From assembly GCA_963920525.1 (NCBI GenBank), contig OY986439.1, positions 27,910,819-27,974,818 on the forward strand: a stretch of 64,000 nt of DNA, written 5' to 3'. Within the stretch, counting starts at the first letter, position 1; each line of letters begins with the position of its first letter. This DNA is from Dichetophora obliterata (taxonomy: Eukaryota > Arthropoda > Insecta > Diptera > Sciomyzidae). A program made the position numbers and the translations under genes. This document shows positions 859 through 64,000 of the stretch, in pieces. Below the pieces are notes generated by a model. The model searched no databases. It saw only the letters and a list, made by a program, of their open reading frames with translations, and was not told where the DNA came from.

Positions 859-1254
859 TCATTTATATATTCGAAGGATTAATTTGTTATAAGGATTTAT
901 TAGATTCGAAGGCGTTAAAAAGACCGAGCTCAAACATAATCTACTTGGTGCTCCCTTGAAATTTAAAAAAAAATGTAATTACACTGTCCAACAAATGGGA
1001 CGATTTACAACATTTGCAATTGTAAATTAGAATAAATTAATTGAAGTTATAAAAAAAAACAATTGAAATTCAAAAACTTCAATTGAGTGACGATAAAAAA
1101 AAATTAACAAACTTTTATTCTTATAATTTTAATAAAAGCCTATAGCTAAAGTTTAAATAAAATCAAAAGGCATTACTTGCATAAGGTATGAAATGGCTGA
1201 TAAGAAAAGACAAAATTTGTTTTATTACAATCAGAGCTGGTATGTAATCAACTA

Positions 1255-1480: not shown

Positions 1481-2304
1481 TGAATTACTGCATAAATCTT
1501 TCTTTTTCATGATGCAATTCACAAAGAAGATCTTTTCTAAAATCTTTATTAGTGGTGGGGCCCTGCTGGAATAATTCTCTTTGTAATTCGTTCTTTTTGA
1601 TGCTGTTCACGGCTGCACGCTCTTTCTGATTTTTCATTCGAAAAGTAAGTCTTATTTAAGGCATATATTGATTTTTAATATTTCAGAATTAATTGGTTTC
1701 TCTCTCGTATCAATTTATATATTTATTATTAGGTTTGTTTCCGTACTAACTTCAATTAAAGTTCGAGTGAAGTTCGACTAATAGAGAGTTACTTGATCAT
1801 CTGTCAAAATTAAAATATTTATCAAAAAGTACGAAAACGACTTCAAGTAAATTTCAAACACAACAGCTATTCTTACATTTTTGCAATAGAAAAGAATTTC
1901 TTTTGCATGAAATTATTAGTTTGTTCTTATAAACTACACTTTGTTCAAAATAAAGAAAACAAAAGCACTTGCATTTAATTACACTGTTCGACCAGGGTTT
2001 TTTTTTTCCTTATGCGGCATTATGTGTTTCTAAGGGGTTTTGACATGGAAAACTAAAATACGAAATCAGAATTTTCGTATCATCCATAGTTTTTTGGTTA
2101 TTTGAAAATAAGTGTTTTATTTCCCGTTAATATATTGAATGGGGGCGATTGCTGAAAAATTTAGTAGCAACAGGTGGCAACATCAGCTCTTGTGTGATAC
2201 TAAATCAATTTTATCACCATATTCTCTTTTAAATATCCTACGTAAATACCCCGCACCACACCTCTCACCAACATAAACTGCGAATGCATTCGACGAAGGC
2301 ATGC

Positions 2305-2420
2305 CTAACGGCTCCATTAGACTACTGACATTAAATGAATCAGCTGATTGATGGTGTTTAATCATTTTTGGTGATGTTTACACATTTGGAAAAGTTGTTA
2401 GTAGTCTAATGGAGCCTTTA
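2305..2420. repeat. short inverted repeat (hairpin) inside the TTA-flanked element
   Basis: GGCTCCATTAGACTAC at about 2308 is matched in reverse complement by GTAGTCTAATGGAGCC at about 2402, with about 80 bp between. It may be a tiny non-autonomous insertion or a subterminal hairpin of the host transposon. No target duplication could be settled. Confidence 0.55.
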
Positions 2421-2613
2421 GTCATTGTATATATATACCACGTTGTTCAGATAACCCCTATACCACTTTGTTCTGATAACTTCCAAGTGATTATAGCAAT
2501 ATAGAACTGATTCTTTGTTGGACTGAATAAAATATTTTTGTGTGTCATGTAAGTGCATATTCCTCTTTCCACAGCAACTCAAACATTAATGAAATCAAAC
2601 TTTTCTCTAGAAA

Positions 2614-4226
2614 ATGTCTCGTCACCGAGCTTGTCGGAATAATCCAGACAGTTTTTGCTACATCTGCGGAGAATTCACGTTTGCAAGACATAAAAAGAAA
2701 ATTTCTCCCGTTATAAAGAAGGCTTACAAAAATTACTTTGGAATGGAGCTTGGAGATCAGGACAAGGACTGGGCGCCACATATTTGTTGTGCTACTTGTT
2801 ACGTGAAATTAACAAACTGGTGGAATGGTAAATCTTCCATTTTGTTTGCAGCCCCAATGTCTTGGAGGGAGCAAAAAGACCACATAACAGATTGTTATTT
2901 CTGTCTCACTAATGTTACAGGTTTTACAAGCAGGAAATCAAAGAGACACATCGTTTATCCAAATTTGAAATGAAATATTGAAAATGATACATATAGTGAA
3001 GATGGAAGTGTTGGTCAGTAATTGCCATCCTCTTCACCTGAAAATGATCCCACGTATCAGAGTGCAAGTATACCAAACCGATTCTTTTTAACTCAGGCAT
3101 ATCTAAATGATTTAGTTCGCGACTTAGGCTTAAGTAAACAAAAGTCAGAACTGCTAGGATCTAGGTTACAGGAATGTAATCTGCTCCATGAAGATACAAA
3201 TGTTACTCTTTTCAGGCATAAAGAAAGTACTTTTCTTCCTTTTTTTACAAATGATAAAACTCTTACGTTCTGCAACGATGTGTGCGGCTTAATGAGAGCT
3301 CTAGATTTTGAATACGATCACCGTGAATGTAGACTTTTTATAGACGCCTCCAAAATTAGTTTAAAGGCAGTCCTACTCCACATTGGAAACGTAATGCCTC
3401 CCATCCCAATTGCCTATGCTAGTATAGCTAAAGAGTCATATGAAATTTTGGAGAATATGCTCGCATGTATCAAATACAATGACTATAAATGAAAGATTTG
3501 TGGTGATCTGAAAATCATTGCCATGATATAAGGAATGCAGCTGGGCTACACCAAATATGGGTGTTTTATATGTGAATGGGATAGTCGTGACAGAAGTTCC
3601 CATTATAAGAAAAAAGTTTGGCCTCAACGAAAATGGAAACTATGCGAAAAAAATTTACAGCGTACAAAACTTGTAGCTAGTGAAGATGTGCTCCTTCCAC
3701 CACTTCATATCAAATTAGGCCCCATGAAGCAATTTGTGAAGGCAATGGATAAAAGTGGAAGAGGATTTATGTACCTGTCAAGCAAATTCAATCGTCTTTC
3801 ACCAGCAAAAATTAAGGAAGGTGTGTTTGTTGGCCCCCAGATTAGGCAACTTCAAAAGGACCCACATTTCGAAGCAGGTCTGACGCCAGAAAAAAACAAG
3901 CATGGACGTGTTTTAAGAACGTCACAAGAAACTTTCTAGGAAAACGGATAGCTCCCAACTACAAAAAATTAGTTGATGATATGCTTGTTGCATACAAAAA
4001 CCTGGGATGCAACATGTCCCTGAAAGTGCATTTTTTGCACTCTCATTTGGATTTCTTCCATGAATGCTGCAGCGACGTTTCTGATGAATATGGTGAAAGG
4101 TACCACAAAGACATTCTAACTTTAGAAAAGCGATACGAAGGAAAATGGATGCCTACTATGCTCGGTGACTACTGCTGGAATATTGTACGAGAGTGCAAAG
4201 ATATTCCGCATAAAAGAAAGAAATAA
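2614..4226 (+). pseudogene. broken candidate transposase of unclassified Cys-rich family
   Basis: The reading starts at ATG 2614. It has an N-terminal cysteine-rich region (CYIC, CCATC, CYFC), then LFIDASK (about 3336-3356), CGDLK (about 3500), a CFICEWDSRD block (about 3565), LPPLHIKLG, FVGPQIRQL and finally GERYHKDI (about 4092-4115). The blocks match a protein family common in insect and cnidarian genomes and usually labelled uncharacterized. In-frame stops lie at 2971, 3019, 3490 and 3529, and a frameshift lies between about 3900 and 3980, so this copy is dead. The D, D and E of IDASK, GDLK and GER could form a DDE-type site; this is inference. The C-terminal end resembles the fragment at 55289-55597. 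Confidence 0.75.
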
Positions 4227-4248
4227 CATTATTAACTAATGGAAAATA

Positions 4249-5532
4249 TTGGGGGTTGGAATTAATTTTAAAGGTTTTTTTTCGGTTTTTGAGCATTTAT
4301 TTAGAAACAACGGTACAATGTATATTATTCAAAGTATTGTCCATCGTTAGTTACAACATTTTCCCATCTTTCTGGCAGCATATGGATTCCGCACCGGAAG
4401 AACGATTCGTCTTTTGAGGCAATCCACAAATCGACCCATTTTTTGGTATCCTCGTAAGAAGTGAAGCGCTGCTCAGCCAAGCCATGCGTCATCGATCTGA
4501 ATAGGTGGTAGTCGGAAGGGGCTATGTCTGGGCTATAAGGCGGGTGGGGTAGCACATCCCAATTCAGCGCCTCCAACGTTTCCTTGACGGTTCTTGCAAC
4601 ATGTGGCCGTGCGTTGTCATGTTGAAAAACCACTTTGTCGTGTCTTTTGGCATATTCCGGCCGTTTAACCTTTAATGCTCGGCTCAATTGCATCAATTGT
4701 TGTTGGTAGCGTTCCCCAGTGATGGTTTCGTTAGGTTTTAGCAGCTCATAGTACACGACACCCTTCTGATCCCACCAATTACACAGCATAAGCTTGGCGC
4801 CATGAATATTCGGCTTGACCCTCGATGTTGATGCATGGCCGGGTGGTCCCCACGATTTTTTTCGCTTAGGATTATCGTAATGGATCCACTTTTCATCGCC
4901 AGTGACAATACGATGCAAAAAACTCTTCCTTTTATGCCGTTGAAGCAGTTGTTCGCACATGCAAAATCGCCGTTCAACGTCTCTCGGCTTCAACTGGTAC
5001 GGCACCCAGTTTCCTTGCTTTTGAATCATTCCCATGGCCTTCAAGCGTTTGCCGACCGTTGATAAGTCGACTCCCAATGATTCTGACAATTCTTGAAGGG
5101 TTTGACACGGGTCTTCATCGAGCAAAGCCTCCAATTCCTCATCTTCAAACTTTTTCGGCTGGCCCGGACGCTCTTTGTCTTCCGTATCAAAATCACCACT
5201 TTTAAACCGACGGAACCAGTACTCACAAGTAGAAATCGATGGAGCATAGTCCCCGTAAGCCTCAGTAAGCGTGCGTTGTGCTTCAACTTTTTTCTTCAAA
5301 TGGAAGCACAAAAGTAAACCTTCCCGCAAATTGCGTTTTGTTGGAACGAAAGTCGACATGTTCACAGAGAAAAAAATATATGTTGTTTACACTTCAGCGG
5401 AATGGCACATACTAAAAAATGAAGCTTAGACAATGTGCTTTGAAATGAATATAGTCACAGGTGTGCCCGATGCGATCTATTGATAGTTACGCCATCTCTT
5501 AGAAAACCTTTAAAACTAATTCCAACCCCCAA
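4249..5532 (-). mobile_element. complete Mos1-like mariner element (1284 bp)
   Basis: Both ends read inward TTGGGGGTTGGAATTA and continue with TTTTAAAGG, giving 28-30 bp inverted repeats with one or two mismatches. TA dinucleotides flank it (4247-4248 and 5533-5534). The total length is within 2 bp of canonical mauritiana-subfamily mariners. It is inserted just downstream of the broken gene in the TTA-flanked element, so it is the youngest layer of this nest. Confidence 0.95.
4325..5365 (-). CDS. mariner transposase, mauritiana subfamily (346 aa), apparently intact
   Basis: A cut-and-paste transposase that would act in the nucleus on the element's own inverted repeats. The open frame is uninterrupted and begins MNMSTFVPTK, as Mos1-type proteins do. 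An N-terminal paired-like helix-turn-helix region covers roughly residues 1-115, followed by the WVPYQL linker (variant of WVPHEL) near 120. The catalytic triad is visible: D157 in TGDEKW, D250 in HDNARPH and D285 in APSDYHLF, with 34 residues between the last two (DD34D). The C-terminus LPERWENV...YFE is typical. Length and catalytic residues are those of an active enzyme. Activity itself cannot be judged from sequence. Confidence 0.95.
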   Translation of the reverse strand: MNMSTFVPTKRNLREGLLLCFHLKKKVEAQRTLTEAYGDYAPSISTCEYWFRRFKSGDFDTEDKERPGQPKKFEDEELEALLDEDPCQTLQELSESLGVDLSTVGKRLKAMGMIQKQGNWVPYQLKPRDVERRFCMCEQLLQRHKRKSFLHRIVTGDEKWIHYDNPKRKKSWGPPGHASTSRVKPNIHGAKLMLCNWWDQKGVVYYELLKPNETITGERYQQQLMQLSRALKVKRPEYAKRHDKVVFQHDNARPHVARTVKETLEALNWDVLPHPPYSPDIAPSDYHLFRSMTHGLAEQRFTSYEDTKKWVDLWIASKDESFFRCGIHMLPERWENVVTNDGQYFE

Positions 5533-6153
5533 TACATATTTCTTGTTCTTATTTTTCATGTATTAAGATCTACTAATATCGGGTATTATATTTAGAAAAA
5601 CTTCTGTGGAATTAAATAAAGTTTACATTACATTTATGCAGAATGTTTTTTAATGCAACATAAAGAAAGGTGAAAAAATTTAATTCCAAATTACTAAAAA
5701 ACTGTGCCTGATGAACAAAATCTAAAAACATATTTGAAATCATGATATTAATTACAATTCAGATACTCAGAAAAATGAAAAAATTTTTTTTTTGTAGAAC
5801 AGTGTTATTAAAATAGTTTTTATTTCACATAACAATAAAAAATATTGATTTAATATTTTGACGATCAGCTGTTCGTAGCTGGAAATTCGTGCTCGAAGAA
5901 ATTTTTCACGTAAAGTTCAAGTAATTGTAATAGAACAGAGAGTGACACTTAGCTTGTTCTTCTTCTCTCTTGAGCTTGAAAAATGTGTAAAGAAATGCTT
6001 TCAAGTAACTTCAAGTTACTTGAAGCGAGTACGGAAACAGACCTATTATTGAGTTCGTTTTGATTTATATCATTGAAAAAACTTATTGTTCAAAACAAAA
6101 TAGTTTCGGAATAAAATTGCAATATATTTGCTTTTTAGTAAGGAGAAAAATAA

Positions 6154-16383: not shown

Positions 16384-18460
16384 TGGCGTTCATATAGTAT
16401 TGAGACAACTGATAAAATGGAATGTTGGGTCAAAAATTTTTTATTTCATTAAAGGTTTTTTATCCAGCAGGAAATGCAGGGTGACTGTGAACGGTTCTTT
16501 ATCTTCAGTGACATCACTTGACAATGGCACTCCCCAGGGTTCACCGCTGTCGGTGATACTATTCATAATAGCATTTGACGAAATAAGTCATATCATATCT
16601 AAATACTCTTGTGTTGACCATGTTCTACATGCCGATGATGTTCTTGTTTTTTCGAAAAATTCCAACAAAAATTTAGTTGAAGTTGTATTCACTGACATCC
16701 TTACTGATATAAAGGGCTGGTCACTGTTATCTGGGGCAACAGTATCAATTGAAAAAACTAACACAGTGTAGATTGCACTAACCTAAATTTAACATTTAAT
16801 AATGTAAATATAAATTGTAAAGATAACTTAAGAATTTTAGGGCTAATATTTGATAAGAAGTATACTTTTAAGCCTCATTGTAAATATGTTCGAGATAGCT
16901 TATTTTTAAAGTTAAATATAATTAAGTATCTTTCGTCTAAACACGGATTTGTTCATCCAACAACACTAATCAATGTCACCAGAGCGTTTGTACTATCAAA
17001 AATCGAGTACGGTATTCCTATTTATGGTCATTGCGCGAAAAGCAATATTGGGCTGTTGTTTGCACCCTATCACAAATCAGTTCGTAAAAGCCTCAGGGCA
17101 TTTCCAACTACACCAACAATAAATATTCTGACAGAAGCTGGCTTACCCTCAATACCGGATAGAACCAAGGACGTCACTTACCGTCTTTTTCCAAAACTTT
17201 TGAGTTCAAAAAATCCTGTTCTTGCAGAGGATGTTAAAAAGGCATTGAGTCGGAAAAGGGCTCCAAAGGGCTCGACAATAACAAGATGTCTAGAGTTTGG
17301 TAGAGTACATTCCCTTCCGCTAAAGCTCAAACGCCATAATCATGACTGTCACCCACCTTGGCTACTAAAAGACTCATCATTGGAAAACAAGCTCTAGGAT
17401 TATCTGAAGGACAGCACATCCAACGTAGTTTACCAAACACTATTTCTTAATGAAGCCGCTCAATATAAGGCCTCAGGATGGAAGTTTCTTTTCACTGATG
17501 GCTCAAAAACTATTAACAATACGTCTTTTGCAGTCGTTCATGAGAATGGTGCTCCTATCAGCTATGGCCTATTGCACAGTTTTTGCTCTGTGTTCACAGC
17601 TGAGGCTGTCGCTTTACTTCAAGCTTGTACTTTTGCGAAAAATAACAGAGGTAAATTTATGATCTGCACAGACAGCAAATCTTGCGTCATCGCAATTCGT
17701 GCACATACTAATTCAACTGACACTATAACCACCATCAGGATATCCCTCACAAGGCTCATACAAAAATAAAAATTTTGTGGATTCCAGGCCATTCTGGAAT
17801 ACGTGGTAATGAGTTTGCAGACACGACAGCAAAAAACATCAACATTACACCAGCACCAGTATTTGACACATTTAGCACTAAGGACATCAACAATTTTATT
17901 GTTAAGCAACGTTCTGCAGCAAATACCGAGATCTGGAATACCTATAATCATCATTATTCTGCTATAAACCCTGATCGTGATAAACCAGTTTACCCAAGCG
18001 GTTCACTAACCTTTGCTATAAAACCCTTCATACGTCTACGATTAGGACACATAAGGATAACACATGAGCACCTACCTAACGGTACAAGCCCTAACAACTG
18101 CCCATATTGTAATTTGCCAGCATCAATTAACCATCTGTTAAACATCTGCCCTAGACTAACAGAACAAAGGAATTTTTACTTCTTGGATACTCGGCCTTAC
18201 GACATTTTAAAACATCCAACATATAACAATATTATGAAAATGTATAATTTTTCAAAAGATTGTTACTTGCTTAATTTAATCTAAGTATTATTTATTACCT
18301 AGTTTATATACTCTTACATATTTCCTTTTCTCAATTCATGAAACTCGAACATTACTCCTATATTATAATCAGCCAGTCGAAAGCCTTAGCTGCTAGTACT
18401 GCTTAAGTCTGCATTTATATAGTTTTTAATTATTGTATAAATTCTAAAAAATAAAATAAA
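16384..18460 (+). pseudogene. 5'-truncated, broken I-clade LINE (reverse transcriptase + RNase H)
   Basis: It starts in mid reverse transcriptase. It shows GTPQGSPLSVILF (about 16517-16560) and the active-site block HADD in place of YADD (about 16627-16640), then the thumb/connection region. An RNase H domain follows with FTDGSK (about 17491), AEAVALLQ (about 17600), TDSKS (about 17670) and GNEFADTTAK (about 17805). It ends in a CPYC...H...C knuckle near 18100. Breaks: frameshift near 16389, stop plus frameshift near 16769, stop at 17395, and an A-run frameshift with TAA at about 17767. The 3' end is an A/TAAA-rich tail near 18460. RNase H with this layout points to the I group. Confidence 0.88.
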
Positions 18461-39035: not shown

Positions 39036-41312
39036 TTAGGTAATAAATGGGTTTAGCAAATTTGCATTCAGTACTTTTTTACCTCCATTTAGTTTTTCTG
39101 GAATACTTTTCAGTGTTTTACTGAGGTCATCAATTTTGGCAATAAAGCTTTTCTCTTTTAGCATATTTCGTAAATTTTTCAATTCTGGGGTATTTTGTGA
39201 ATACTGATCATTTCGCCGTGGCACAGAATTATCAATATCGCAGCTTTTTTGCTTTCTCTTTTTGCTAAAATTTCGCTTAGTTCGCCGTGGCACAGAATAA
39301 TCAATATCTAAGAGTTCCAAATTGCTCTCTGATAACGCTGGTGAGCTGATATCACTTGCACATGCAGACAAATCGAACTCTGGTGTATTTGGTGTTTCGC
39401 AGTCGCTTATGCTGGGCAAACGCGAACCTAATGTAGACGTTGGTGAGTGTAACTCGCTGTTGAAATTATTTTCCTGCAGCGGATTACACGCCACTGTTAC
39501 ACTTTCAAACGTTAAAGCTTCTTCTTTGTCTTCTTCATCTACTTCAGAGCCTAAGTTATTAGATTTTAAAAGGAATGGATTTTTTTCAAGATCTGTTACA
39601 GTTTCATCTAGATCGCTGTCGTTATCGCTGTCAAGCCAGTTTAAATGGTTTGTGCCAGCACTTAAAGCTTGAAATGCTGGCAACAGCGATGGATTCGTTT
39701 TCAGGTGTGTTTCAATTTCCTCACTGGTAATTTTACGGAATCCAACTGCAGGTATTTGTCGTCCGACGGCAGCAATGCGTTCTATAGCAGCAGTTATTAA
39801 GTTTTGATCGAAAGGTTTCTCAACAATCTGGAGAAGAAAAATGTTTACACAGATCTATTGCACACAAATTGAATAAAATATATTACATACTTTCTTCCAC
39901 ATTGTTTCCCAACCAGAATTCCAGCATTCAGCTGTAATCTCCTCTATCGAATGTTGTATCATTTTAAACGAGTCCACCATCGCAAAATGTTCCCATAAAT
40001 CGTTGAAACTTCGACCGTAATCCACCATAGAGTTGGCCATCATGGCCGAGAGCAGACGGCTTAGATAGTTGCAAGCGAAAGTGGGCATCACCGTCATGCT
40101 TAACGGCTGCAACAAACTGGCGGTTTTGTCTGGAAAGTATAGAAACTTTACCAAGTCGTCTTCGGCGGAAACTGGCAAATCGCTCTGACCATCTAATAAT
40201 GCAGGATCTATAAGCAACAAAGCTTTGGCTGGCAAATCTTTGACTTGCAGGAAATCACGTACTTCCGGTATAAAGCAGGTTTGCAGCCAATCAAAGAAGT
40301 AATCCGACCGAATGCGATCTTTTTTAGCATATGGTATAGTTTTACCTATATATAACGAAAGCAACGAATCATCTTGCATTTGAGGCGAATATGTGTGATG
40401 CAAATACATTGGTTTGACTAAAAAGTCACCACTGGCGTTGCCACAAAAGAGCAGACTAAGTCGATCCTGACCTTTTTCATAGCGATCGGTTTTATACAGT
40501 TTAGTACACTTCGGCATTAGTTTCCAGTTGAGAAACATTTCGGCTGCATTGAAGACCTGTTGCGGCAAGTAGTTGCCTTCAGTGATTAACTTATGAAAGT
40601 CAGATATAAATTCTCTTGCCATTCGTTTGCTCTTAAGAGTCGGTTGGATGTCGCGTAATGTATTGGCAGTGGTTCCTTTAGTGGCGGTGACATCGTTTGT
40701 TTTCACAGCAAGCACACTTTGTTTATTTTGCTTTGTTTTAATACCATTGCCGATATTAGCTGCTCCAATCGGGCTCTTCGTCAGAGTGGCTGGTTTTAAA
40801 TTCGTGTTATTCGCAGGATTATTTATGGGCTCCAAAGTCGCAAAGTCTAAATGTTCTCGCCAAGGCATGTAGCGTTTACAGAATTGTTGAAACCATTTTT
40901 CATCAGCATCAAAACTACAGTGTATCGCCTTGTCCCCATCGAGAACTCTACCCATTTTAAGGAGCTGCTGCTCGGTTTCAGTTTCCAATAGTTGCGTATG
41001 GATCGTGCATGCCAATTGGCATATTTCGTCAGTTTTCATGATCCTTCCAACGTTTTGTTGTTTCTCGACCTCTGAAAAAACTTCTTGTTCCATGCGATGC
41101 AGTATCTGACCATGCAGTGTAGTCTGTAATGGCTGCTCAGAGCAATTCAGCAGCAAGACTCCTTTAGCAGTGGGTTGTTGGAGCGTAACGGCGATAGCTT
41201 GTTTTTCCGTTGTATTCAGCCACTCCGAGACGCTAAACTTTTCCTGCTGTGTTAGTAGCTTGTTTTTCTTTATTTGTATTTCTGGCGGATTTATTGGACG
41301 TTTACGCGACAT
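39036..41312 (-). CDS. domesticated pogo/CENP-B-like (Tigger-type) protein, 737 aa, two exons
   Basis: Exon 1 is 41312-39891 (474 codons), exon 2 is 39827-39036, and the 63-bp intron has GTATGT and TTCTTCTCCAG borders. Residues 72-150 resemble the CENP-B/Tc5 DNA-binding domain (FDADEKWFQQFCKRY). Residues 225-475 follow the DDE_1 fold: QVFNAAEMFLNW where transposases have NxDE, GNASGDFLVKPM, LLLIDPALL (D369) and SLLQPLSMTV where LQPMD is usual. A257 and S405 thus replace two catalytic aspartates. The C-terminus is acidic (DSDNDSDLDE), then basic (RRTKRNFSKKRKQK), a likely nuclear signal. No inverted repeats flank it. It is likely a nuclear DNA-binding protein; the target is unknown. The start is the first ATG after an upstream GC-richer region. 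Confidence 0.88.
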
Positions 41313-41578
41313 TTTGCTGGTGGTAAATTAATTAAAATTTTGTTTATAATTTTTAACTCGTTTTCCAGAATTTGCACAAAACTTGAAAAGCAACTCGACT
41401 CGCTTCGATTGTTACTCGTTACTTTACAGTGACACTTACAGCAGCTGTTTCAGGGCTGCAGTAAAAAAATTTCAGATGGATTTATTTCCTTGTGTAAGGA
41501 AATAGTAACATAGAGCTCTATTATGTAGTTTGTTAACAAGGGTATTCAATTCTTATGTCAAGTCCTTCTTAAATGCTT
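41313..41578. other. upstream region of the domesticated gene
   Basis: It should contain the promoter and 5' leader of the minus-strand gene. The segment 41395-41460 is less AT-rich than the surroundings. I see no certain TATA box or initiator. A CAGGGCTGCAGT word at 41451 looks like a hAT end but has no partner. Confidence 0.35.
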
Positions 41579-52956: not shown

Positions 52957-53891
52957 ATGGTTGTGTATACGCTTGAACAACGCTGGGAAATATTGCGACA
53001 TTACTTTGAAAATCATGGTAATGTTGCAGAATGTGTGCGAAGATTGCGTAGTTGGATTTTGGAAGAAGAGAAGCACCGTCAGCTCCGTATGTTCGTTATC
53101 TTGTGAAAAAAGTGAAAGAAACTGGCATCCTCATCGATAAACCAAAGCGTGAAAAGCCAAAAGCAGTGCGTACACCCGAGAATATTGCTGCTGTGGCAGA
53201 AAGTGTGCGTGAAGCGCCATCAATATCAATTCACCGTCGTTCTCAACAATTAAACATTTCGGAGACATCATTGAGACGAATTTTGCATAAAGACCTTGGT
53301 ATGACGCCATACAAAGTCCCATTGGTTCAGGATTTGAAGACTATCGCATTTGGGGCACAGAAAATCCGCACGTATACATTGAAAAGCCGCTGCACCCAAA
53401 ACGAGACTGTTTGGTGCGGATTTTGGTCCAGGGGCATAATTGGGCCATTTTTCTTCGAAAATGAGCAAGGAGTGGCCGTTACAGTCAATGGCGATCGTTA
53501 TCGGGCCATGTTGAACGAATTTTTGTTCACAAAATTGAAGAGGAGGATATTGGCAACATTTGGTTTCAACAAGACGGCGCTACGTGCCACACAGCCGAAG
53601 CTACACTCGATGTTTTGCGCCCTGTTTTTGAAGATCGCATTATCAGTCGCAGAGCTGATGTCGTTTGGCCACCTCGGAGCTGCGATTTGACACCGTTGGA
53701 CTATTATTTGTGGGGTGCCCTCAAAGATAAGTGTTACGCCGACAAACCAGAGACAATTGACGCTTTAAAGGAAAATATTCGTGAAGCCATTGGTGAAATA
53801 CAGCTGCACACAATCGATAATGTGCTTAAAAATTGAACCAATCGTGTAGGCTACTGCATGTCCACCCGAGGCAGCCATTTGAATGAAATTA
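52957..53891 (+). pseudogene. DD41D mariner-like transposase, broken and internally deleted
   Basis: It starts MVVYTLEQRWEIL at 52957. A frameshift near 53050 precedes the helix-turn-helix stretch RRSQQLNISETSLRRILH. After LVQDLK the first catalytic region is deleted, and the frame shifts again around 53345 and 53540. The last blocks are FQQDGATCH and WPPRSCDLTPLDYYLWG (about 53570-53715), with 41 residues between the two aspartates, the rosa-group spacing. A stop replaces W in the usual KNWTDR block at about 53834. Non-functional. Confidence 0.85.
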
Positions 53892-54669
53892 CACAGTGAT
53901 ACAAAAGTGAAAAAAAGAAATATGCAGGGGTTCTCATGCAGCAATTCTGTTTTGCTGGAGTCCATAGAGTACGAAAAAACTTATACTTTTTCTCAGTCAC
54001 TTCGTTAAGTAAGTTTTTTTATAACAAATGTAGTGATATAACGATATTCCCAAAATTACAAGTTCAAAAAATCATAAGTTTACTCTGCATTAACCGATTT
54101 TCAAAATTTTGCTTTTATTTTACAGATCTGATTTGTACGTTTTAATAAAAAAAACATTTTGGCAATCAGTTCAAAAATGGCTCAGTTACGGTCGATAAAG
54201 TAAAAAAAAAAAAAAAAAAAATTAAAAAATGTTCATTTTCATCTCGCTCTAAATTGACCGTTAGGCAGAAAATTCTGCTTTTTTAAATTTTATTGACAAT
54301 CATATTAAAGTTGGTTTCTAAAACAGGTAAGGTCATAAAAATCGGTTACAAAATGAATCAGTTACGCCAAGTTTTGTGGTAACATGTTTTTTTCTTTTTT
54401 TGTGTTTTCTTAGAAATGTAAATATTTTTCAGGTAATAAAACAAGAAAACGCCTAATATGCAAAATCATAGTTGGATGATTGTTACACTGTTTATCTCAG
54501 CCAACGCTTGTTTACATTTCGCACTAATTGGAGTCATTATCCACATGTTTACATGCGTTTCTCCCCTTTCACGTCTTTTGTGTGGGTGACATTTTGCATC
54601 ACAACAAACACGATTTTTGTTTTTTCCTTTCCTACTCACAACCGCACTAGTGCTGAATTATTGAAAGTA

Positions 54670-55291
54670 CAGGGTCCGCAATATAACGTTATTTTTTTCA
54701 ACTAGTGCTTATTTCGTGAATGGTAACACTTAGCTCATGTCTGATTTCACAGATAATTAGTTTTATCCTTCCGCTGAACGAATATGGTTGTGTGTACGCT
54801 TGACCAACGGTGGGAAACATTGCAACATTACTTTGATGCAGAAGATGCCGATTTTGCCAAAAAAATCATCAGAAATCATCAACAGGACGGCGCTACGTGC
54901 CACACAGCCGAAGCTACACTCGATGTTTTGCGCCATGTTTTTGAAGATCGCATTATCAGCCGCAGAGCTGATGTCGTTTGGCCACCTCGGAGCTGCAATT
55001 TGACACCGTTGGACTCTTATTTGTGGGTTGCCCTCAAAGATAAGTGTTACGCCGACAAGCTAGAGACAATTGACGCTTTAAAGGACAATATTCGTGAAGC
55101 CATTGGTGAAATACAGCTGCACACAATCGATAATGTGCTTAAAAATTGGACCGATCGTATAGGCTACTGCATGGCCAGCCGAGGCAGCCATTTGAATGAA
55201 ATTATTTTCCATTATTAACCGGAAGGATTGTAGTTTCAAATAAAAAAAGATATTTGAAAAAATATCTAGTAGTTTTCTTTTATAGAATTTT
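54670..55291 (+). mobile_element. DD41D element fragment, internally deleted, 3' end lost
   Basis: It starts CAGGGTCCGCAATATAACG after TA and follows the outer DD41D copy. From about 54835 it joins the first catalytic region directly to the second (internal deletion). It then runs to about 55291, just before the expected 3' inverted repeat. It lies directly against the remaining coding of the TTA-flanked element, so its insertion or a later deletion removed the upstream part of that gene. Confidence 0.8.
54784..55218 (+). pseudogene. truncated DD41D transposase frame (144 codons, open)
   Basis: The frame is open from ATG 54784: MVVCTLDQRWETLQHYF, then ADFAKKII, then HQQDGATCHTAEATLDV and WPPRSCNLTPLDSYLW, ending SRGSHLNEIIFHY. 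The final catalytic D of TPLD is present, but the first aspartate (SDEAHF-type block) is deleted. It still encodes the C-terminal half and could make a fragment, but not an active enzyme. Confidence 0.8.
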
Positions 55292-55597
55292 CATAGAAAC
55301 ACAAGAAGTGTAAATTATGAGGAAATAGTACACGAAAATCTGTCTGCCTACCATGCAATGGGCTGCAAAATGTCTATCAAATTGCACCATCTCCATGCTC
55401 ATTTGAATATGTTCCCATCAAACTTAGGGCAGATGAGTGATGAACAAGGTGAACGATTTCACCAGGACATTTCAAGAATTGAACAGCGGTATGTTGGAAA
55501 AAGTAAAGTCAGTATGCTGTCTAACTACTGCTGGTATATAAAGCGAGAAACTAGCAGCGATCTTTATAAAAAACAAATGAAACGCAAGCATTTCTAA
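55289..55597 (+). pseudogene. C-terminal fragment of the Cys-rich candidate transposase family
   Basis: The reading frame from about 55289 shows NYEEIVHENLSAYHAMGCKM, LHHLHAHLNMFPSN, SDEQGERFHQDI (about 55436-55471) and LSNYCWYIKRE, ending at TAA 55595-55597. It aligns block by block with 3960-4226 of the other copy (YKNLGCNMSLKVHFLHSHLD, SDEYGERYHKDI, LGDYCWNI). Only the final ~100 residues remain. The stop codon lies at the inner edge of the right inverted-repeat arm, which suggests a compact element design. Confidence 0.8.
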
Positions 55598-56159
55598 GAA
55601 AACACAAAAAAAAGCAAAAAACATGTTATCAGAAAACTTGGCGTAACTGATTAATTTTGTAACCGATTTTTATGATCTTACCTGTTTTAGAAACCAACTT
55701 TAATATGATTGTCAATAAAATTTAATAAAGCAGAATTTTCTGCCTAACGGTCAATTTAGAGCGAGATGAAAATTAACATTTTTTAATTTTTTTTTTTTTT
55801 TTACTTTATCGACCGTAACTGAGCCATTTTTGAACTGATTGCCAAAATGTTTTTTTTTATTAAAAGGTACAAATCAGATCTGTAAAATAAAAGCAAAATT
55901 TTGAAAATCGGTTAATGCAGAGTAAACTTATGATTTTTTGAACTTGTAATTTTGGGAATATCGTACTCTATGGACTCCAGCAAAACAGAATTGCTGCATG
56001 AGAACCCCTGCATATTTTGTGTGTAGCACTGTGTTATTTTTCATTATTAACCGGAAGGATTGTTCTTTCAAACAAAAAAATAAATTTAAGAAAATATTCA
56101 GTAGTTTTTTTTATAGATTTTAAAAAAAAAGTTATTTGGCGGACCCTGTATATAAATAT

Positions 56160-59984: not shown

Positions 59985-61151
59985 CACAAGCAAAATTATG
60001 CAATAATTATGCAAGCCATGGTGGTGGTGATGCTATGTTTATAAGGGAGGGTATTAAATGCCAGCTTGTTTGTAGATCAAGTCCTTCTGACAAAGTGGAG
60101 TTTCTTTTTCTTGAAGTAGCATACGCATCGAGTAAGCTTCTTGTAGGTTCAGCATATAGACCCAACCGCGCTATAGACACCGACGTTTTTATTGATAGGG
60201 TCGAGGCTTTGTCACTTTCATACTCTGACATAATCATCTGTGGCGATTTTAATAGTAACATTTTGGGAAGAATCTCATCTTGTCGATGATATGAAATCTA
60301 TTGGACTTTCTCTATCAAATACGACCACACCAATACACTTTTCGAACACTAAAAATACTTTGCTAGACCTCTTTTTCGTGAATGAAACCAGTAAAATCTT
60401 GCTTTACGATCAGTAATCTGCACCTATGTTTTCTAAACATGATCTTATATTTCTAGCGTACGACTTTAAATTGATTCCTAAAGAGGAAAAGTTAACGTTT
60501 CGTGACTTTAAAAATGTTGATCGTATATCGTTGTTTGCTGAAGTCGAAAGCATAAATTGGTCCACTTTATTTTCTGTCCCACAGGTAAATGACCAAGCTG
60601 TGTTTTTTGAAAATAATATAAAAGATCTTTTTAACAAATATGTTCCCAATAAAACTAAAATTTTTAAACACAACCAGCCACCTTGGTTTTCAAGTAGGAT
60701 AAAAATGCTAATAAGAATGCGCAATGAGGCTTTTAATAGGTGGAAGAGGTTCAAGATGCCTGAGCTACAAGATTACTTTAAGCAATCAAGAAGAGATGTC
60801 GTTCGAGAGGTGTCAGCTGCTGAGCTGGCACACTTCGAACATAAGTTTGCATTTGCCCTGAATGGTAAGCAGAAATGGAATCTTCTGCGAAAAATTGGAA
60901 TAGGCAAAAGTGTGACCTGTGATAATCATCATACTGATGTTAATGAGCTAAACAAAAACTTTACTAGCTTACCTATGCCTACTTCTCGACCAGATTTTTA
61001 TGAAGACATAAGCCCACCGCATTTACTTTCGAGTTTTAGTTTTTCCTGCGTGGACCAAAACGAAGTTGTTCAGAGTATGCTAGCAGTAAAATCAAATGCT
61101 ATGGGCACGGATAAAATGCATCCAATTTTTATCAGGATGCTTCTCCCACAG
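59985..61151 (+). pseudogene. CR1-group LINE fragment: endonuclease and linker, broken
   Basis: An apurinic-type endonuclease is recognisable by SHGGGDAMFIREG, LLVGSAYRPNR and IIICGDFNSNIL (about 60230-60262), then LLDLFFVNE and SKHDLIFLA. Defects: frameshift at about 60265 (after SNILG) and an in-frame TAA at about 60414. The frame then stays open to 61151 through PPWFSSRIK, KQKWNLLRKIGIG and SNAMGTDKMHPIFIRMLLPQ, just before the reverse transcriptase. There a second LINE is inserted in opposite orientation. The 5' end is truncated or decayed near 59985. Confidence 0.8.
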
Positions 61152-61542
61152 TTTATTTATTTATTTATTTAATTTAATTATCATGTTCACATATAAGACA
61201 AAGTCTTTTAAATGCAGTAAGAAATCAAAGAATAACAACAAGTTATAACCAACAAATAAATAAAAACAAAAAAATTTTAATTTACTTATTTTAAATTAAA
61301 AAAAAAGAAAAAAATTGTAAACACGACTAAATTTAACTTTAAATTTTAAATTTAAGTTATAATCAACAAACAAATGCATTTGACTCAAGAAATTAAATTT
61401 AGTTATAAGCTTCAATTTTAACAATAAATTATAATTGAATTGAATTTAGACTTATGTATAAATTACCTTTAAGGAACTTTATCAAAAAATTAAGAAGATA
61501 ACATTAATAGAATAGAAAATAGAAGATAGAAGAAAGATAGTA

Positions 61543-63498
61543 TCAAGAAAAGTGTTGGAATATTGCATGCTTAAAGTTGTGCTTATTTCGGATACTTTTG
61601 ATTCTTGAAGGTAGCGAATTCCACATTCTGATAGCGTTCACAAAAAAGAGTCTGTTAGAATTCAAAAAATTGTATACAGGGATTACAAGGTTCATATTTC
61701 TGGTCGATCTACAAAACTGTAACTTATTAAATAAGTAATTAGGAGTTTGTGTATAAATCAAGTTATGCAAAAAAATACAGTTTCTAGCATCCAAATAATT
61801 GAAAATATTGCAACCAAGTACTCGATTGCTCAAATGACTTATACGGTCAAACTTTTTAAGACCATAAACGTATCTGACAGCATTATTAAACACAAGTTGT
61901 AACTTAAGCTTTGACCTCGAATCAAACTTACTGTATACAACTTCTGAGTAGGAAATTATTGGCATTATGAGTTGAACCACTAGCTTTCTTCTAGTCTCAA
62001 CAGGCACAAATGATGCAGTTCTTCTCAGGTTCCGTAGGATATAGTAAACTTTACAAACAACAGAGTTTATATGATCTTCACAGAAAAGTGAGGAGTTAAT
62101 ATAGTAACCGAGATTTTTAACTTTACCTATAAATTTCAAGTCGACTCCATTCAGAAAAATGGCTGGTATATCAGAAAAAGAGTATCTAGACTTAAAAATC
62201 GGCATAACAAATGATTTAAGAGGGTTAAGATTAAGCTTATTAGCTTTAGCCCAATCTACTATTTTACTCATGTCTTCATTTACCTCAATACATAAATCAT
62301 CAACAAGATCAATTGGTTTGGACAAGTACAGCTGAAGATCATCAGCATATGCATGCATGGTTACATGACGGCATTTGCTGAAAATATCATTAAGAAACAT
62401 TGCAAATAAAAGCGGACCAAGTACCGAGCCTTGAGGAACTCCACAGGATAAATTGTTAAAAGCAGACAGACTATTTCCCACCCTTACTCTTTGAGACCTT
62501 CCAACTAAGTAATTATATAACAGACGGACCGCAGTAATAGAAAACCCAAAATTAAGTTCTAGTTTTTGACATAGTAATAAATGGTCAACAGAGTCAAATG
62601 CTTTTGAAAAGTCCAACATGCAAAGCAAGCTTATATGCCCCATATCATATGATAATCTTATGTCATCTAGGATCTTCACAATAGCTGTAGAGCAGCTGTG
62701 GCCAGGTCGAAAACCAGATTGAAGTGGTGACATAAGGTTAAATTTTCTAATGTGTTCGGAGATTTGTACAGCCATGAGAGACTCACATACTTTTGATAAA
62801 GCTGGTAAAAGACTTACCGGACGAAAATCACACGGTTCACAGGCATTGGGTTTTTTAGCTATAGGAATGATTGTAGCAGCTTTCCACGCATCAGGGAAGC
62901 AAGAACTTGTGAAACAGTGATTCATTATGTGTGTCAAAGGGCTTATGATGAAAGGTAAAATTATTTTTATAAATTTAATAGCTATTCCATCTTCACCCAC
63001 TGCATTTGATTTAATATTATTAACGCAACGAGCAACATCACACTCATTTACAGCAACAAACTGAAAATTACATGGCCTTTCGGTAGTAAAAACTATCGTA
63101 TTATCGACAGATGTGTTATAAGTAGATGTTGAGGTAGCGATAAAATAATCATTAAGAATAATAGGATCAATTAGAAAATCATCGGATTTCACATTACATA
63201 CTCCAGCCTGTCTTAAATTGTTCCAAAGATTTTTGGAAGGTTGTGCTAAACTTAGCTTCGACATGAAAAAAGTGCGTTTAGATAATTTAACAATGCAGTT
63301 AGCTTCATTTCTAGCTCTTTTGTGCTGTTCCCAATTAGATGTTGTCGGGTTTCTCTTCCAACGATTATAAGTTTTATTACGTTTTTTCAGGGCCAATTTA
63401 ACATTATTTGTAAACCAGGGACAACTTCTGTTAGAGACACGACGTGTAGTCAATGGAACATACAACTCAAATAATTCACAAATTATATTACTTAAAAA
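61543..63498 (-). CDS. LINE ORF2 reverse transcriptase region
   Basis: Uninterrupted reverse transcriptase. Counted in the frame that opens upstream at 63585: PWFTNN linker near residue 56, FRPVSLLPALSK at 254, LCMLDFSKAFDSVDH at 321, CGVPQGSVLGPLLF at 381 and the active site YADD at 413-416. Then come the thumb region and a C-terminal stretch with IRMWNSLPSRI typical of CR1/jockey-group ORF2. Catalytic aspartates in LDFSKAFD and YADD are present. It ends at 61543 with FQHFS. It would continue directly from the endonuclease frame but for one indel at the A7 run, 63494-63500. Confidence 0.9.
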   Translation of the reverse strand, partial: FLSNIICELFELYVPLTTRRVSNRSCPWFTNNVKLALKKRNKTYNRWKRNPTTSNWEQHKRARNEANCIVKLSKRTFFMSKLSLAQPSKNLWNNLRQAGVCNVKSDDFLIDPIILNDYFIATSTSTYNTSVDNTIVFTTERPCNFQFVAVNECDVARCVNNIKSNAVGEDGIAIKFIKIILPFIISPLTHIMNHCFTSSCFPDAWKAATIIPIAKKPNACEPCDFRPVSLLPALSKVCESLMAVQISEHIRKFNLMSPLQSGFRPGHSCSTAIVKILDDIRLSYDMGHISLLCMLDFSKAFDSVDHLLLCQKLELNFGFSITAVRLLYNYLVGRSQRVRVGNSLSAFNNLSCGVPQGSVLGPLLFAMFLNDIFSKCRHVTMHAYADDLQLYLSKPIDLVDDLCIEVNEDMSKIVDWAKANKLNLNPLKSFVMPIFKSRYSFSDIPAIFLNGVDLKFIGKVKNLGYYINSSLFCEDHINSVVCKVYYILRNLRRTASFVPVETRRKLVVQLIMPIISYSEVVYSKFDSRSKLKLQLVFNNAVRYVYGLKKFDRISHLSNRVLGCNIFNYLDARNCIFLHNLIYTQTPNYLFNKLQFCRSTRNMNLVIPVYNFLNSNRLFFVNAIRMWNSLPSRIKSIRNKHNFKHAIFQHFS

Positions 63499-64000
63499 AA
63501 TACAACTTCTCATTAACAGTACTAAGAAACCAACATTCGGACCAATTAATGATAGACAGGTCATTATACAACGAAACATAATCAATAGCTTTATAATTAC
63601 GAAATGAAACAGTTTTAACAGTTAAAATCGGTGTCAAAGTTATATTCAAAGAACAAAAAAGAAGATCATGGTCAGATATAAACGATAATTGGTCGAAAAG
63701 CAAAACAGTAGAAACATCTGAAACAATAAAAAGATCTAATAAACTTGGAGTAGCATTAATTGCATAGCGCGTAAGTAAACTGGTATTTACTATTTGGAGA
63801 CCAACTTCAGTCAGACGATCAATAAAATTACCAACAAGACTATCCTTAAATAAAACATTTATATTTAAATCACCACAAAAAACGAAGTGATCATAGTCAA
63901 TTGCACAATTCAACAATATAGTAAACAATTGCTCCAAACAACAATTACGATTCGGATTATACACACACGACAAGAAAACTTTTGTACAACTGTCATAGAT
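63488..64000 (-). CDS. LINE ORF2 endonuclease region (partial, 5' end off window)
   Basis: Frame open to the window edge. Visible motifs: VFLSCVYNPNR, VFCGDLNINVL (the GDFN-type metal site with L for F), PSLLDLFIVSD and ISDHDLLFCSL (SDH catalytic block). The order is that of the apurinic-like endonuclease of non-LTR retrotransposons. The frame stops right after the T7 tract (minus strand), one base out of phase with the reverse transcriptase. A single-base length change there would account for the whole break. Confidence 0.88.
   Translation of the reverse strand: MYDSCTKVFLSCVYNPNRNCCLEQLFTILLNCAIDYDHFVFCGDLNINVLFKDSLVGNFIDRLTEVGLQIVNTSLLTRYAINATPSLLDLFIVSDVSTVLLFDQLSFISDHDLLFCSLNITLTPILTVKTVSFRNYKAIDYVSLYNDLSIINWSECWFLSTVNEKLYFFK

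Follow-up and report, generated by a model that had tools for sequence, protein, structure and literature searches.

A well-supported Chapaev3-type transposon family, with a predicted RAG1-like transposase core, in the sciomyzid fly Dichetophora obliterata

We analysed a stretch of 64,000 nucleotides from the genome of the fly Dichetophora obliterata (contig OY986439.1, positions 27,910,819 to 27,974,818 of the forward strand; hereafter the window) and found that two elements in it, E1 and E2, are very probably Chapaev3-type DNA transposons, whose family protein of ~550 amino acids (aa) is a DDE transposase. A preliminary description, made from the letters alone, had proposed that an insect gene family encodes the transposase of a CAC-ended, TTA-duplicating transposon recalling Chapaev3; the ends and 3-base-pair (bp) duplications of members in the same genome bear out the transposase, and the testable published criteria agree with the Chapaev3 likeness. 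That placement is supported by comparison with published descriptions. Judged from sequence, the features of a DNA transposon are evident: ends, a duplication of 3 bp, an unoccupied target site, conserved motifs, and copies that are almost identical and retain open genes. Chapaev3 was known as a transposon group, to which the present elements add one more well-supported family of its type.

Searching the window with six intact relatives (tblastn, E ≤1e-3) gave two transposase-like places, 2614-4223 and 55253-55588, and both gene loci lie, as first described, between CAC ends with TTA directly outside (E1, 1982-5804; E2, 53892-56033). E1 begins with A-TTA followed by CACTGTTCGAC (1982-1992) and closes with GTAGAACAGTG followed by TTA-T (5794-5804); in E2, A-TTA precedes CACAGTGATAC (53892-53902), and GTAGCACTGTG (56023-56033) precedes TTA-T. 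The earlier judgement that such bracketing is unlikely by chance held up: none of 400 Markov-1 resamplings of the window bracketed either gene locus within 3 kb, the mean occurrence of TTA plus CACWGTNNNAC per resampled window being 0.015 (left type) and 0.0275 (right type). E1 comprises the following features:

1979..1981, left target-site copy TTA of E1, preceded by A
1982..5804, plus strand, E1, Chapaev3-type element, 3823 bp with a nested mariner and ~2.54 kb without it
1982..1992, plus strand, left terminal inverted repeat CACTGTTCGAC
2614..4226, plus strand, broken transposase gene, an N-terminal Cys-rich domain and then an RNase H-type core
4249..5532, minus strand, mariner nested in the 3' part of E1, 1284 bp, with inverted ends and TA copies at 4247-4248 and 5533-5534
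5794..5804, minus strand, right terminal inverted repeat CACTGTTCTAC
5805..5807, right target-site copy TTA of E1, followed by T

The E1 gene is disrupted by in-frame stops at 2971, 3019, 3490 and 3529 and by one frame change near 3920; E1 is a dead copy of one Chapaev3-type subfamily, and its termini and similarity boundary match those of three other copies (L002, L004 and L005).

Scanning the genome (1.31 Gb, 76 contigs) with a 156-aa segment of the E1 gene produced 3077 first-look candidates, of which 150 were scored; every one of these passed. Thirty-six gene-bearing loci were examined, 28 fetched and eight from the genome scan, E1 (L001) included, and boundaries were compared in five subfamilies with at least two copies each and both ends reachable, 19 copies counting E1. 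In all 19, similarity between copies ends at CAC and GTG: over 31 pairs, mean identity is 98.9% and 99.6% inside the two ends (15 bases) and 28% and 33% outside them (30 bases). The 3-bp flanks are identical in every copy (TAA/TTA in 17, CTA in one, GAA in one), with A before and T after, and four-base identity occurs in none. This genome-wide check, proposed in the preliminary description, therefore came out in its favour. End positions for the comparison were derived from a search that required matching flanks; no both-ended copy in the five subfamilies was discarded for unequal flanks, and the fetched loci omitted from these subfamilies were L010, L003, L006 and L007, each with one end missing from the sequence retrieved, and L001, which is E1 itself.

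Together with the E2 family described below, 27 copies were mapped at both ends; in each, the two 3-bp flanks agree and stand between A and T, reading TTA/TAA in 24 and CTA, GAA and ATA once each; the proposed duplication thus stands in its length and not as an invariable TTA/TAA. The proposed end pattern, CAC[AT]GTNNNAC, likewise holds for the ends in the window and is too narrow in general, other subfamilies starting CACTGGGTAAC, CACTGGTCAAC, CACAAGTTTAC, CACAGGCCGAC, CACTACTCAAC or CACTACGTAAC, roughly CAC-N6-AC. Six near-identical copies (L009, L011-L013, L015 and L016), in elements of 2.55-2.57 kb, have intact ends and differing 3-bp duplications; because they keep a 557-aa frame and differ from one another at only 2-7 of 557 residues, this subfamily moved recently. 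L014, 4198 bp long, has ends matching at 12/12 positions (CACAGGCCGACA) and a 570-aa frame.

Eighteen of the 36 loci stood outside the boundary count. In eight (L014, L020, L021, L022, L023, L024, L027 and L036) ends were found by pair search, L023 and L024 being one duplicated segment; the other ten (L001, L003, L006, L007, L008, L010, L019, L025, L026 and L035) did not yield both ends by that search, and L001 among them is E1 again, shortened by its flank. At the nine one-ended loci other than E1, the adjoining triplet is TTA/TAA in eight and TTC in L008; beyond the triplet of the seven right ends, four continue with T and three (L006, L007 and L035) with C, so that A...T is strongly preferred without being absolute. 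Across the 36 loci, a search for CAC pairs with a duplication did not discriminate (CAC 26/36 versus TTT 27/36 and AAA 25/36), and with the duplication requirement dropped, 9/30 first-listed top pairs carried one. Because the elements contain other inverted repeats, the pair search is not a clean test, and similarity boundaries were therefore taken as the basis.

E2 belongs to the same group and has a different architecture:

53889..53891, left target-site copy TTA of E2
53892..56033, plus strand, E2, non-autonomous foldback element of the same group as E1, 2142 bp
53892..54418, minus strand, left arm, an inverted copy of the E2 right end
54668..55290, plus strand, mariner piece within E2, which also provides the empty target site
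55286..55597, plus strand, C-terminal transposase fragment, carrying H(4)H and SDEQGE
55589..56033, plus strand, right arm
56034..56036, right target-site copy TTA of E2

Both long inverted arms represent the 3' end, present in duplicate, and the left one takes in the final codons and the stop of the transposase gene. The left arm is matched at 98-100% by 40 scored places (of 249 candidates, E2 included), and seven further copies, read to both ends and 1987-2210 bp long, can be aligned with E2 across the mariner piece and some or all of the transposase fragment; E2 is therefore a recently spread non-autonomous foldback family, with the mariner piece part of the mobile unit. The 3-bp flanks of these seven are identical and lie between A and T in every case (six TWA, one ATA), and with E2 counted, CAC/GTG ends occur in 8/8 and a TWA duplication in 7/8. 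E2 is itself inserted in a mariner-like copy, a relative of which, inside E2, preserves the site without an insertion and with only one TTA, so the TTA of E2 is a 3-bp duplication made on insertion. The C-terminal fragment (55286-55597; also in L040 and L049-L054) travels in this non-autonomous family, by which a full enzyme is not encodable. Five of the 40 scored arm matches form a local cluster within ~21 kb (G000 contig C7, 6604004-6625091).

The family protein has the residues expected of a DDE enzyme in part as first proposed: the two D of the triad stand (D260 and D314, each 120/120), and E508 (118/120) and E511 (119/120), the two E of SDExGE, are both candidates for the third catalytic residue. 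RAG1 N-E962-S-G is alignable with E508, yet one A2 row without E508 retains E511. C333/C336 and L380 H381 are conserved in 120/120 and H489/H494 in 119/120, and the C(2)C, LH and H(4)H motifs were found in L009, L014, L017 and L018. The fold check that had been suggested was also favourable: the predicted model contains an RNase H core with the RNase H strand order and, over residues 175-552, resembles RAG1/Transib transposases; the first Foldseek match of the predicted structure was the P element transposase. No sequence homology to RAG1/Transib was detectable, and common descent with them is therefore not claimed from sequence. Searches of viral contigs and genome contigs yielded no relative, and a comparison with viral structures produced no match at E ≤0.001.

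Upstream of this core lies a Cys-rich N-terminal domain with a ZAD-like predicted fold; Chapaev3 transposases have been described with an N-terminal 'Chapa' zinc domain (PMC4411706). None of ten whole proteins rescanned matched zf-AD (Pfam scores, where shown, are below the curated cut-off), and comparisons of the N-terminus profile with solved ZADs and with the PDB were negative. A Chapaev-ZAD link is not stated in the titles or shown abstracts of the 15 papers listed (of 238) on ZAD and transposases, nor in passages of two; PMC7397244 contains both words. An architecture in which Chapaev3 transposases carry a ZAD-like domain at the N-terminus, ahead of a RAG1-fold catalytic core with the RAG1 zinc site C(2)C/H(4)H, is doubtful, and the ZAD likeness may be a chance similarity of small zinc folds.

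For catalysis and the roles of zinc we infer a scheme in which the N-terminal zinc domain would probably bind DNA or pair subunits, while the RAG1/Transib-like core would grip both CAC ends and excise the element, cutting by a nick-hairpin route like that of RAG. Insertion, mostly into A-TWA-T sites, would then proceed with a 3-bp stagger that gives the 3-bp duplication, and the E2 family would be mobilised in trans by such a Chapaev3-type transposase.

Several observations weigh against a Chapaev3 assignment: the family matches no Pfam or NCBIfam model; the name Chapaev appears on none of 120 listed homologues (of 1896), which, where named, are only 'uncharacterized protein' or 'hypothetical protein', as the preliminary description had anticipated; the likeness is drawn from published descriptions; and the duplication is not invariably TTA/TAA, as the CTA, GAA and ATA copies attest. 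The word 'unclassified', used at first for the family, is accurate for Pfam and NCBIfam and is confined to them, because Chapaev3 is an already described transposon group. The first three of these points would suit a new CAC-ended superfamily near Chapaev3/Transib, rather than Chapaev3 itself, but the 557 aa and 2.55-2.57 kb of one subfamily are comparable to the 556 aa and 2,289 bp of Garfield (PMC4079192). Those Chapaev3 diagnostics that are testable, the motif triple and the A-TWA-T site among them, are moreover present, and a separate superfamily is quite unlikely.

CACTA (En/Spm) elements, with CACTA termini, share CAC ends and a 3-bp duplication with the elements here, and some subfamilies in this genome start CACTA (L018, L020-L024 and L027). 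CACTA and Chapaev3 also both fall within the CMC grouping (PMC4079192). A CACTA identity is nonetheless hardly credible: Transposase_21 (PF02992) matched none of 24 members at E up to 10, the mapped ends mostly read CACTG, CACAG or CACAA, and the A-TWA-T site preference speaks against it. Uninformative homologue names would also be compatible with a host gene family lying between chance CAC ends, but similarity boundaries coincide with ends and 3-bp duplications in 19/19 both-ended copies of five subfamilies, the DDE residues are invariant or nearly so, and in one genome every scored match passed (150/150, out of 3077 first-look candidates), making this reading next to impossible.

Returning to the surroundings of E1, the nested mariner has an open frame of ~344 aa from ATG (stop-to-stop 4325-5386; Pfam Transposase_1, E 4.1e-26); lying in the dead E1 with its ends matching and its TA copies and frame present, it is possibly recent. 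An inverted repeat, TATTAGGTTTGTTTCCGTACT..., flanks E1 on either side (1727-1759 and 6016-6048), from which E1 seems to be nested within another inverted-repeat element. An uncertain further left end of the same pattern lies within 979-996, ~1 kb before E1; no partner for it was found:

979..992, plus strand, candidate third left end, A-TTA followed by CACTGTCCAAC

Elsewhere in the window, open frames at 61543-63621, 60417-61172 and 16762-18284 look by eye like non-LTR reverse transcriptase or RNase H-like pieces, and two adjoining open frames at 39036-41327 (490 and 272 aa) like a pogo/Tigger-type transposase.

A large protein family, whose listed members are named only as uncharacterized or hypothetical, can now be named as a transposase, and transposition by this group looks directly testable because the genome carries almost identical copies in which the gene is open and the ends are intact. 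The predicted core resembles RAG1, the enzyme that rearranges vertebrate antibody genes; this predicted fold adds structural evidence in favour of a 2015 proposal to group Chapaev3 with Transib and RAG1 (PMC4411706) and bears on the filing of Chapaev3 solely under CMC. The structural link, which comes from a predicted model, is worth testing.

Chapaev3, exemplified by Garfield, Merrow and Conan, is described as beginning with CAC and ending with GTG, duplicating TWA between A and T, and encoding the motifs C(2)C, LH and H(4)H (PMC4079192); the elements here share these ends, duplications and transposase motifs, as well as a transposase of ~556 aa and non-autonomous derivatives. Unlike Garfield and Merrow, whose genes have two exons where most other Chapaev3 apparently have one (PMC4079192), the gene here is a single open frame, and unlike Chapaev3 as described there, the family includes CTA, GAA and ATA duplications and a foldback derivative with a captured mariner piece. 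The protein is like the P element and hAT (Hermes) transposases in its RNase H-type DDE core, and differs from the ZAD (zf-AD) of insect C2H2 zinc-finger proteins in giving no zf-AD hit in the ten whole proteins rescanned. Transib proper makes a 5-bp target duplication, unlike the 3-bp duplication found here (4-bp identity, 0/19). The predicted core fold is like that of HzTransib (6pqx) and mouse RAG (9jpu, 5zdz), and the family and the Transib/RAG1 core have in common 19 residues from the second D to C(2)C, and H(4)H; the corresponding landmarks of mouse RAG1 are D600, D708 and E962, with zinc residues C727/C730 and H937/H942 (PMC4914335). CAC ends, too, are common to the family and RAG1/Transib, the E2 end being the recombination signal sequence (RSS) heptamer CACAGTG (PMC2666730).
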